Below, piece by piece: positions 4,691-51,944 of a DNA stretch of 64,000 nt; position 1 is the first letter of the stretch; each line of letters opens with the position of its first letter. The notes under the pieces are model-generated. The model was given only the letters and a program-made list of their open reading frames with translations. It was not told the origin of the DNA and ran no database searches. Made by a program: the position numbers and the translations under genes. Source of the stretch: Oligoflexales bacterium (GTDB lineage: Bacteria; Bdellovibrionota_B; Oligoflexia; Oligoflexales; RGVZ01); the NCBI GenBank assembly GCA_947468665.1, contig CANILH010000005.1, positions 1-64,000 on the forward strand. The letters are read 5' to 3'.

Positions 4691-5674
4691 TCAGGGAACT
4701 TCAACCCGGTCAAGAATTTTCTGAACAACACGGTCGCTGGAAATTTGCTCCGCCTCGGCCGCGTAACTGAGCGTGACACGGTGTCTGAGAATATCCACAG
4801 CCACGTCTTTGATGTCCTGGGGTGTCACATAATCCCGTCCCATGAGCATCGCGTTTACACGAGACGCCTTCTCAAGGAATAAGCTTGCTCTGGGACTCGC
4901 GCCGGTCTCAATCCATGGCACAACATCTGTAATTTTGAACCTCGCCGGATCACGGGTCGCGAACACCAGGCTGACAATATACTGATGAATTTTGTCAGAT
5001 ACCCGGACTTTAGCGGCAAGCTGACGGCCCTCGACAATATCTGAGCGTGACAGCACGGATTTTAGCGGATCAGTCAGACCACCGGAACTCGCGCGACGCA
5101 GCATCTCGATCTCGTCACGTTCCGTACCATAGCTAACTTTGACTTTGAACATGAACCGGTCCACCTGGGCCTCAGGCAATGGATAGGTGCCTTCCTGGTC
5201 CACGGGGTTCTGAGTCGCCATCACAAGAAACGGCTGCTCTAGAGTAAACGTCTCACCACCAATCGTGATCTGGCGTTCTTGCATAGCCTCAAGTAACGCT
5301 GACTGGACTTTTGCCGGAGCGCGGTTGATCTCATCGGCCAAAACGAGATTGGCGAAGAGCGGTCCTTTGCGCACATGAAATGTTCCTTGTTTGGGATCAT
5401 ATACTTGAGTTCCCGTCACATCCGCGGGGAGAAGATCCGGTGTAAACTGAATCCGTGAGAATTTCAGTCCTGTGAGTTCACTCATGGTTTTGATCGCAGT
5501 TGTTTTGGCGAGGCCTGGCAGACCCTCAAGCAAAACGTGGCCATCGGCGAGCAACGCCATAAGAAGTCTCTGACCAACGTGAGTCTGACCAACAATGCGC
5601 GAGGAAAATCCCGCGAGAACCATCTCAATTCGTGACGCGTACTGTTTAATTTCGGCAGTTACAGCAGAATCCAC
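4691..5674 (-). CDS. MoxR-family AAA+ ATPase
   Basis: LLEGLPGLAKTT Walker A, DEINRAPAKVQSALLEAMQE. Confidence 0.92.
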   Translation of the reverse strand: MDSAVTAEIKQYASRIEMVLAGFSSRIVGQTHVGQRLLMALLADGHVLLEGLPGLAKTTAIKTMSELTGLKFSRIQFTPDLLPADVTGTQVYDPKQGTFHVRKGPLFANLVLADEINRAPAKVQSALLEAMQERQITIGGETFTLEQPFLVMATQNPVDQEGTYPLPEAQVDRFMFKVKVSYGTERDEIEMLRRASSGGLTDPLKSVLSRSDIVEGRQLAAKVRVSDKIHQYIVSLVFATRDPARFKITDVVPWIETGASPRASLFLEKASRVNAMLMGRDYVTPQDIKDVAVDILRHRVTLSYAAEAEQISSDRVVQKILDRVEVP

Positions 5675-5734: not shown

Positions 5735-6994
5735 TCAAGAGGCTATCGGTGGTATCACCCAATAGCAACCCATGCGGTGATTCATCCCGGAAATCCTATC
5801 CCGCAATGCCGCGACGCCATCACTCTCACGCCAGTCAAAATCGGTCAGGTTTAATGTTTCTCTCATGATTTTTATTTTCGGCCAGATCATCCGTGCCCAT
5901 GCCAAATGTGGCTCTTCACTGAGCTGCTGAAGAATGAATCGCATGCCGCGCCTCTCCTGGCGCGCCACAATCAGAATATCAATCCACCAGCTGGCAAACC
6001 GGATATCGATACGGTAGAGCTTATGGGCCTCAAATAGCTTCAGCAGCCGCGGATCCTCAGCCGTTGGGTACGAGTGCCCAAGCAACTCCAGAAAAGACTC
6101 CCACTCCTCGGCGGCTATAAGATCGGTCAGTCTCCGCATGCGCTCATCAGGGGACATGGCTCGTGATTTGACTATACGGCTTAGGGCAGGTTCTCGCAGC
6201 GCCGAACCCTGACGCGACACTGATGTCTGATTGACCGAGAGCATCGCATGCCTTGACTGTTCTTTGGCCGGTATGGCCTCGGGTATGCCCGCTCCGGGAG
6301 CCTCCACAGAGACCCGGGCAACCGACCCCTCAGCCAGTGCGCGCTGAACAGGCGCGGGATCCACCGCGACTGGCATCTCTACAGACTTAGGTTTTTCTAC
6401 CGGTTTTGATTCCGGCGGCAACAATACGGTCGCTGGTGCCAGATCCAACTTGAAATCAGATACGGAGAACACTTTGACGACAATATTCTCATTTGTCGGA
6501 GGGGTCGTCTCGATATCGAAATGAGCCAATGGCAGGAAGTTGCTCCTGGTTGGCTCACCCACTAGATCACTGACGAACGATCCCGATAATTTTGCAGCCG
6601 GCTCCGGCGCCCCGGAAAGCACCATCGTCACATGCTCCTCAATCGTAATGCGGGAGACGCTTTTGTCATCATTAGACAACTTGCCACTCACGAGCCGCTT
6701 CGCCTCAAGACGAATACGCTCAGCCTTTTCTTTTTTGCCAAGCCTATCGAGCGCGTCACTAATCAAAACAAGGCTTTCCATATCACGGAGGCCTGATTTA
6801 TAGACCATCCAGGAGACCTCAATCGCCCTGCGCGGCGCGGTTTGAATTAGTGCCCCCCCAAGGCGCAGCACAGCATCAACCCGCTCATACTCGGGCGTAT
6901 CGGCCGCAAGCACAAGAAAACGGTCTACCAGTACGGTATCCGTGGGATTTGACTTAATGATATCCAGCAGACGTGCCAGCCCGGGCCCGATCAT
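5735..6994 (-). CDS. Hypothetical protein, 419 aa
   Basis: Long ORF with RBS-like AGGGAGG inside a hairpin; no family recognised. Confidence 0.65.
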   Translation of the reverse strand: MIGPGLARLLDIIKSNPTDTVLVDRFLVLAADTPEYERVDAVLRLGGALIQTAPRRAIEVSWMVYKSGLRDMESLVLISDALDRLGKKEKAERIRLEAKRLVSGKLSNDDKSVSRITIEEHVTMVLSGAPEPAAKLSGSFVSDLVGEPTRSNFLPLAHFDIETTPPTNENIVVKVFSVSDFKLDLAPATVLLPPESKPVEKPKSVEMPVAVDPAPVQRALAEGSVARVSVEAPGAGIPEAIPAKEQSRHAMLSVNQTSVSRQGSALREPALSRIVKSRAMSPDERMRRLTDLIAAEEWESFLELLGHSYPTAEDPRLLKLFEAHKLYRIDIRFASWWIDILIVARQERRGMRFILQQLSEEPHLAWARMIWPKIKIMRETLNLTDFDWRESDGVAALRDRISGMNHRMGCYWVIPPIAS

Positions 6995-6997
6995 AGG

Positions 6998-7037
6998 AAA
7001 CCTCCCTTATGCCCTGTCATCGGCATAAGGGAGGTTT
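6998..7037 (-). promoter_or_regulatory. Perfect 16-bp stem / 8-nt loop hairpin enclosing the SD of the downstream gene
   Basis: AAACCTCCCTTATGCC (6998-7013) and GGCATAAGGGAGGTTT (7022-7037) are exact reverse complements. Confidence 0.7.
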
Positions 7038-7098
7038 AGATAACAAGGTAATATTTACCGGGCTCTGATCAAAACCCTAAACAGCCCTAGGCCACGGG

Positions 7099-8433
7099 TT
7101 ATACGCCCCACTCCTGCAGAAACCGGGTTGAAACTTGACCCTCAATGAAGCGTTTATCGTCCAAAACCCGCTGATGAAACGGAATGTTGGTGCGAATTCC
7201 GTCCACTTTCATTTCGCGCAGCGACCGACGCATACGAGCCAGACACTCTTCACGGTCACGGCCCCAGGTGATGAGCTTAGCGACCATGGAGTCATATAGA
7301 GACGGAACCGTATATCCCGCATAAAGCATTCCGTCGACGCGAACTCCCGGTCCACCCGGCTCGTGATATCCAGTGACTTTACCTGGCCACGGCGCAAAGG
7401 TTGTCGGATCCTCAGCGTTAATACGACACTCGAGGGCATGACCTCTTAGCTCGATTTTCGCGGGATCAAACGAAAGCTTATGGCCTCTCGCAATATTGAT
7501 TTGTTCTTTAATCAGGTCGACACTGGTGATCATCTCAGTGACGGGATGTTCCACTTGAGCCCTGGTATTGACTTCCATAAAGTAAAAACGCCCGTCCTCA
7601 TCCATCAGAAACTCAACAGTCCCGAGACTTTGATAGCCGACAGCTTTTGCGAGACGAACAGCGGTGTCGCCTATTTCCTTACGGCTGGCAGGCGTCATGA
7701 TCGGGCATGGCGCTTCCTCAAGAAGTTTTTGGTGACGGCGCTGAATCGAGCAATCACGCTCACCCAAATGGGTGACATTACCGTGCTCATCAGCGACCAG
7801 CTGCACCTCAACGTGACGGGGACGCTCACAATAACGCTCAATGAACACCTCTGGATTGCCGAATCCAACCAAGGCCTCACTACGGGCAAGGTCAAACTGC
7901 TTTCCGAGCTCATCCATCGAACGGACGATTTTCATACCGCGTCCACCACCACCGGCGGAGGCTTTGATAATGAGCGGAAAGCCAATTTCTTTGGCAAGTT
8001 TTTCGGCTTCGGACTGAGTCTGGATAGCACCAGTGCTTCCAGGCAGCATAGGAACGCCTGCCTTCTCAGCGAAAGCCCGGGCCTCGACTTTGTTGCCGAG
8101 TGCATGAATATGACTCGCCTTCGGACCGATAAATTTCACGCCGTATTTTTCGCAGATCTCAGCGAATTTGGCGTTCTCCGACAAGAATCCGTAACCAGGG
8201 TGAATAGCATCCACACCGGCGATCTCTGCCGCGCTCATAATAGCAGGAATAGAAAGATAGCTTTTGGCGCTTGGGCCAGGACCGATACAGATACTCTCAT
8301 CAGCGATACGCGTATGCAGCGCGTCACGGTCCGCCAGACTGTGGACGGCAACTGTCTTAAGACCCAACTCCTGGCAGGCGCGTATTACGCGGACAGCTAT
8401 TTCTCCGCGATTGGCAATCAGAACCTTTTTCAT
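7099..8433 (-). CDS. accC: Acetyl-CoA carboxylase biotin carboxylase subunit
   Basis: MKKVLIANRGEIAVRVIRA, GGGGRGMK, EVNTRAQVEHPVTE. Confidence 0.96.
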   Translation of the reverse strand: MKKVLIANRGEIAVRVIRACQELGLKTVAVHSLADRDALHTRIADESICIGPGPSAKSYLSIPAIMSAAEIAGVDAIHPGYGFLSENAKFAEICEKYGVKFIGPKASHIHALGNKVEARAFAEKAGVPMLPGSTGAIQTQSEAEKLAKEIGFPLIIKASAGGGGRGMKIVRSMDELGKQFDLARSEALVGFGNPEVFIERYCERPRHVEVQLVADEHGNVTHLGERDCSIQRRHQKLLEEAPCPIMTPASRKEIGDTAVRLAKAVGYQSLGTVEFLMDEDGRFYFMEVNTRAQVEHPVTEMITSVDLIKEQINIARGHKLSFDPAKIELRGHALECRINAEDPTTFAPWPGKVTGYHEPGGPGVRVDGMLYAGYTVPSLYDSMVAKLITWGRDREECLARMRRSLREMKVDGIRTNIPFHQRVLDDKRFIEGQVSTRFLQEWGV

Positions 8434-28330: not shown

Positions 28331-28783
28331 CGTCCCCCTTCCGTGTTCTCCGTCCTTCCGTGCTTCCGTGTAAGTATTTAAACCAGAATTTGAACACGAA
28401 TTTTTACACGGAAACACGGAGGGGCGGAGGGCACGGAAAAATTAATTGGATAACACTCCCAATTCCACCTCTCCCCGTCCCCCTTCCGTGTCCTCCGTCC
28501 TTCCGTGCTTCCGTGTAAGTATTTAAACCTGACTTTACACCAGAATTTGAACATGAATTTTTACACGGAAACACGGAGGGGCGGAGGACACGGAAAAATT
28601 CAATTAACTAAATGCCCCAATCCCACCTCTCCCCGTCCCCCTTCCGTGTCCTCCGTCCTTCCGTGCTTCCGTGTAAGTATTTAAACCCGAATTTACACCA
28701 GAATTTGAACACGAATTTTTACACGGAAACACGGAGGGGCGGAGGACACGGAAAAATTAATTGGATAACACTCCCAATTCCAC
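28331..28783. repeat. Three copies of a long imperfect inverted repeat (35-bp arms)
   Basis: Arms 28339-28373/28404-28438, 28484-28518/28561-28595, 28642-28676/28719-28753. Confidence 0.92.
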
Positions 28784-51840: not shown

Positions 51841-51944
51841 AGACCTTTAATTTCAACATACTAAACACCTAAAGTAAGTCGCTTTTGTACCGATAGGTGC
51901 TCCGGAGAATTGTATCCACATTTTAGCGACTTTTAGAGATCAGA

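Follow-up and report, generated by a model that had tools for sequence, protein, structure and literature searches.

We report here a perfect 16-bp hairpin in the genome of an Oligoflexales bacterium that encloses the Shine-Dalgarno (SD) sequence of a 419-aa orphan gene behind accC and that, with a probability of roughly 60%, silences read-through RNA and is built around a sigma-28 (FliA)-type promoter. RNA reading through from accC would carry both arms and lock the SD in the 16-bp stem, so that the 419-aa protein would not be made; some termination at the hairpin may add to this block. RNA from the sigma-28-type promoter would start near 7010 in the 3′ arm, without the 5′ arm, and would be translated from a 16-nt leader. 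The orphan would be translated only when FliA is active, regardless of accBC transcription. Positions refer to the window, the whole 64,000-nt stretch of DNA that was analysed, in which the relevant features are as follows.

4691..5674, minus strand: moxR-type AAA ATPase gene, the next gene downstream of the orphan, possibly co-transcribed with it
5735..6994, minus strand: 419-aa orphan gene, encoding helical N- and C-terminal domains with a disordered stretch at 130-276; follows accC across the genus
6998..7013, minus strand: hairpin 3′ arm, GGCATAAGGGAGGTTT
7001..7007, minus strand: SD AGGGAGG
7010, minus strand: predicted transcription start (A), placed by E. coli sigma-28 spacing; its 16-nt leader lacks the 5′ arm and keeps the SD complete
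7014..7021, minus strand: apical loop, GATGACAG; with the last 5′-arm bases it forms TGCCGATGA
7017..7024, minus strand: -10 box GCCGATGA, 11 nt after the -35, overlapping the end of the 5′ arm and the loop; matches CCGATA of the Bdellovibrio FliA consensus
7022..7037, minus strand: hairpin 5′ arm, AAACCTCCCTTATGCC, with the anti-SD CCTCCC within it
7036..7043, minus strand: -35-like box TTATCTAA, weak, from a PWM built on flagellin promoters and refined on the genome
7047..7059, minus strand: small GGTAAATATTACC stem, probably a remnant of the accC terminator, to judge from its position
7099..8433, minus strand: accC (biotin carboxylase), the source of read-through RNA; its stop lies 104 nt before the orphan start

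Read from the minus strand, the RNA is AAACCTCCCTTATGCC-GATGACAG-GGCATAAGGGAGGTTT-CCT-ATG. The geometry given in the initial annotation is exact: the arms are reverse complements over all 16 bp around an 8-nt spacer, and AGGGAGG (7007-7001) lies wholly inside the 3′ arm, six bases from the ATG at 6994-6992. The 141-nt hairpin context had a folding z of -4.7, with 0 shuffles equally stable.

The minus-strand gene order is efp (named from sequence), accB, accC, the orphan, moxR and a DUF58-like gene. No Pfam family matched the 419-aa protein, and its fold had no significant PDB match, with weak TPR-like hits only. A single-sequence search of the genome contigs with the orphan returned no relatives; five relatives were found for the orphan alignment, all in metagenome assemblies filed as Oligoflexales, Pseudobacteriovorax, Bdellovibrio or Proteobacteria, some of these labels probably being loose. 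The earlier label of orphan holds as to Pfam, yet relatives sit after or next to accC in the genus, the family and several other families of the order: they follow accC in 6/6 genus members (the order being kept in all five other same-genus genomes) and in the sister genus, and adjoin it in several further families. The ATG at 6994 is the only usable start, because the 3′ arm carries an in-frame TAA just upstream of it and the N-terminus can be aligned with those of five orthologues. The accC stop of the sister genus is followed almost directly by the orphan start, so the spacer of about 100 nt with its elements is a trait of the present genus.

The E. coli sigma-28 -10 box is GCCGATAA, which GCCGATGA resembles. 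The PWM was seeded with 14 sites picked by eye upstream of flagellin genes of the genus, each a TAAA-type box followed after 11 nt by an NNCGA box, and was refined on the genome with the orphan and fliD left out. Over 1.26 Mb, 63 of 1042 genes scored at least 12, against 5.5 in shuffles, and the predicted sigma-28-type regulon is accordingly wide. In each of the six orphan leaders of the genus (G000, the present genome, and G001 to G005) the best match fell at the homologous position, with the -35-like box 10-12 nt before the -10: TTATCTAA-N11-GCCGATGA in G000 (p against its own shuffles, 0.013), TTAAGGAT-N12-TCCGAGAC in G001 (<0.0025), TTATGTAA-N11-GCCGATGA in G002 (<0.0025), TTAAGGAC-N12-ACCGATAT in G003 (0.005), TATATAAT-N10-GCCGATGA in G004 (0.04) and TTTATAAC-N11-TCCGATGA in G005 (0.043). 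The combined p over the six leaders, whose species are related and not independent, is about 1e-7. A consensus scan found no sigma-70 promoter, and a FliA gene was present above the TIGR02479 cut-off in 6/6 genomes. Mapped attack-phase promoters of Bdellovibrio have the form TTAAG-N16-CCGATA and are taken as FliA sites (PMC3627812); with this consensus, the G003 leader agrees exactly and that of G001 in 10/11 letters. Judged by a -35 of TAAAG or TTAAG and a -10 of CCGATA about 15-16 nt apart, G000 has a good -10, but its weak -35 counts against the promoter.

Sigma-28-type promoters were seen before about 60 genes of G000 (1042 upstream regions, 1.26 Mb), many of them non-flagellar, including a kinase gene (L156:16334), several lipoprotein genes and a 768-aa gene at window position 51944. 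This set is reminiscent of Bdellovibrio, whose FliA attack-phase regulon is wide as well.

The 5′ arm lies between the -35 and the -10, or overlaps the -10, and is therefore upstream of any RNA made from the promoter. Because a promoter inside the hairpin would start RNA past the blocking half, masking is expected only on accC read-through RNA. In the folding model, the probability that the SD is unpaired in the long RNA was 0.000 in G000, 0.019-0.03 in G002, 0.003-0.01 in G004 and 0.018-0.04 in G005; it was 0.14 in G003 and 0.34 in G001, where the weak masking speaks against the model. SD pairing in the long transcript of the kind known from T4 gene e was found in those first four genomes and was weaker in G003 and G001. 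Accessibility fell under the shuffled-leader mean in 6/6 genomes, most not significantly when taken singly. When folding began at the predicted start, the SD was unpaired with a probability of 0.45 in G000, 0.13 in G002, 0.23 in G004 and 0.66 in G005, each above its own long RNA. Two results count against the model here: the gain in G002 is small, its short-RNA SD being still largely paired, and G001 and G003 show no gain from the short RNA over the long.

Among the five other genomes, the hairpin is kept with changed arms in G002 (TCTCCTCCT-TGCCGATGAACCA-GCATAACGGGAGGG) and G004 (TCTTCTCCCG-TGCCGATGATCT-GGCATCAGGGAGA). The nine letters TGCCGATGA are identical in these two and G000, while most of the flanking sequence has diverged. 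In G005, CATCCTCCGATGA can pair with a distant GGAGG, CTCTC pairs with GAGAG in G003, and pairing in G001 is weak. The initial annotation proposed to look for compensatory changes in the leader; the arm-swap test on the orphan was not significant (0.29), which counts against the reading. So does the accC tree, in which the branching of G000, G001 and G003 is not settled and the ancestry of the hairpin is hence not fixed. Just after the accC stop, G001 and G003 carry GGGGTAGGCAAAAATTGCCTGCCCTTTT-type terminators (L023 and L025); in the remaining four genomes, which have the stronger SD hairpin or anti-SD, the accC terminators are degraded.

A second gene, fliD, repeats this layout in 5/6 genomes (G000, G001, G002, G003 and G004), with a TCCGA- or GCCGAT-type -10, an anti-SD overlapping or preceding it, the SD in the opposite arm, and the end of a co-directional gene 85-97 nt upstream. 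Its SD-masking hairpin lies at L150:1301-1332 in G000, with orthologues at L170, L171, L172 and L174 and the sigma-28-type -10 in the 5′ half. The fliD promoter matches were significant in 4/5 genomes (G000, 0.145), and when fliD arms were swapped among species, the true partners paired better than 98% of permutations. The hairpin screen of the genome returned a handful of similar SD hairpins. At two further sigma-28-type genes, L146:1415-1453 and L156:16334, masking of the SD is confined to RNA starting upstream of the predicted start (unpaired probability 0.018 vs 0.98 and 0.004 vs 0.63, respectively). There was no general excess of anti-SD sequences upstream of SDs (33 observed, 28 expected). 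Sigma-28-type genes overall showed no strong excess either (4/33 vs 6/150 at p≤0.05), which counts against a general rule, and any excess in all such genes or in those after a co-directional gene is suggestive only. Tentatively, and with the odds somewhat against it, we propose that a FliA-driven subset (the orphan, fliD and perhaps a few others) carries its anti-SD within the promoter, either between the -35 and -10 or overlapping them, such that only FliA-started RNA would be translatable. This would be a chromosomal code that insulates genes of the motile phase against read-through of the growth phase, and it would have arisen by re-pairing around a fixed promoter and SD.

An unlikely explanation, though the best placed of the alternatives, is that the hairpin terminates the accBC transcript, with the 3′ arm doubling as SD for the gene that follows, the T-tract as spacer, and masking as a by-product. 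The initial annotation had noted that no U-tract follows the stem; this is correct for G000 (TTTCCT) and also for G002 (TTGG), and incorrect for the G004 orthologue, which ends in T7, as fliD does in G002 (T6 in G004). A terminator share is thus likely in G004, with its seven T after the stem. G000 has apparently lost the separate accC terminator present in G001 and G003, a further point in favour of this reading. The present genome also has AAAA-CTCC...GGAG-TTTT stems directly before the ATG of fabH (L129:462-501) and of an S37 peptidase gene (L155:5551-5580), in which the 3′ arm is the SD and the T-tract the spacer; neither has a sigma-28 match, and for this reason both fit the terminator/SD reading better. 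At the orphan, a terminator scan was empty at the G000 hairpin, and termination alone leaves the conserved loop and the -35 to -10 spacing unexplained.

The initial annotation proposed a translational switch, a processing site or a protein-binding leader. Folding agrees with a switch insofar as the SD is masked in RNA coming from accC; promoter choice with silenced read-through is nevertheless more likely than a leader switch operated by ligand or temperature, because the -10 of the predicted sigma-28-type promoter is the apical loop. A true switch, with the stem opened for translation of the accC-orphan RNA when a protein, small RNA or metabolite attaches to the loop, would suit a loop conserved in three species and an SD in the stem; we regard it as improbable. 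The -10 box already explains the loop, a 16-bp stem of about -29 kcal/mol (from folding) is hard to open, no alternative pairing was found by eye, and no credible Rfam match was obtained, the one sub-threshold chance match lying outside the hairpin. The initial annotation itself had named, as evidence against its reading, a start of transcription within the hairpin that leaves out the 5′ arm; such a start is what the sequence predicts, with the promoter match at the homologous position in 6/6 genomes.

Still more improbable is that the palindrome is an operator bound by a regulatory protein, or that the inverted repeat arose by chance. Either would fit the perfect symmetry and the uniqueness of the site. 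An operator is hard to reconcile with G002 and G004, which break the symmetry yet keep SD pairing, and with the lack of another copy: no further 16-bp match to the arm was found in the window with up to 3 mismatches allowed, and no second hairpin in the 2.6-Mb genome or, within 3 mismatches, in 37 relatives. Chance is opposed by rarity, since 464 kb held three perfect inverted repeats of at least 16 bp, the hairpin included, the other two being of A-tract/T-tract terminator type and a C-rich stem. In genome-wide screens, which were run on 1.26 Mb of stretches from the 2.6-Mb genome, the hairpin ranked strongest of those with the SD in the 3′ arm (1206 ORFs). An RNA thermosensor can be dismissed almost outright, for although the SD lies within the stem, folding at 10-75°C, a check proposed in the initial annotation, kept it shut throughout the model and more than 99% paired even at 75°C, with no melt in the biological range.

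A repeat family or mobile hairpin was considered and dropped, as no other copy was found. Window positions 28339-28753 hold tandem 40-nt inverted repeats (TTCCGTGTCCTCCGTCCTTCCGTGCTTCCGTG...), each pair of which could form a long cruciform or hairpin. At L109:9515-9550, a perfect 14-bp hairpin (CATAATGCCCTCCAGTTTTGGTTGGAGGGCATTATG) holds an SD-like GGAGG and an ATG in its stem whichever strand is read, and the reading frames that follow it are all short.

The proposed silencer around a sigma-28-type promoter has a counterpart in phage T4, where long early RNAs of gene e (lysozyme), soc, 49 and I-TevI lock the SD in a helix, and where a promoter within the DNA for the 5′ strand yields short RNAs that lack this strand and are well translated (PMC3014915). 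The likeness would lie in an SD locked in the long RNA and a predicted promoter in the 5′-strand stretch; the difference is that T4 uses a phage late promoter (TATAAATA), whereas the present site has a putative bacterial sigma-28-type promoter and a cellular gene behind accC. The observation of the initial annotation is thus confirmed, and its interpretation is partly supported and recast as a proposed chromosomal, sigma-28-linked form of the T4 mechanism. In the fold-back inhibition of IS10 and IS50, the sequence that covers the transposase SD is present only in RNA started outside the element. The orphan would share with them the masking of the SD in outside-started RNA only; there a transposon is protected, whereas here ordinary chromosomal genes are concerned, with no mobile element at the site. 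In riboswitch expression platforms a single stem may end transcription and hide an SD, but no aptamer or antiterminator was found here, and a T-tract occurs in some orthologues only. The FliA attack-phase regulon of Bdellovibrio bacteriovorus resembles the present case in the exact consensus of G003 and in the many non-flagellar genes with similar promoters; the parts of that study drawn on here (PMC3627812) report no read-through or SD masking, and the present genus is a different lineage.

In dense bacterial genomes, transcripts leak across the borders between neighbouring genes. If the proposal is true, a promoter inside an SD-hiding hairpin would be a compact chromosomal solution that keeps read-through RNA silent, a solution known mainly from phage T4, and RNA-seq coverage over such genes would overstate their expression. 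It would also connect the helical orphan protein, possibly together with its moxR neighbours, with the FliA programme of bacteria related to predators.
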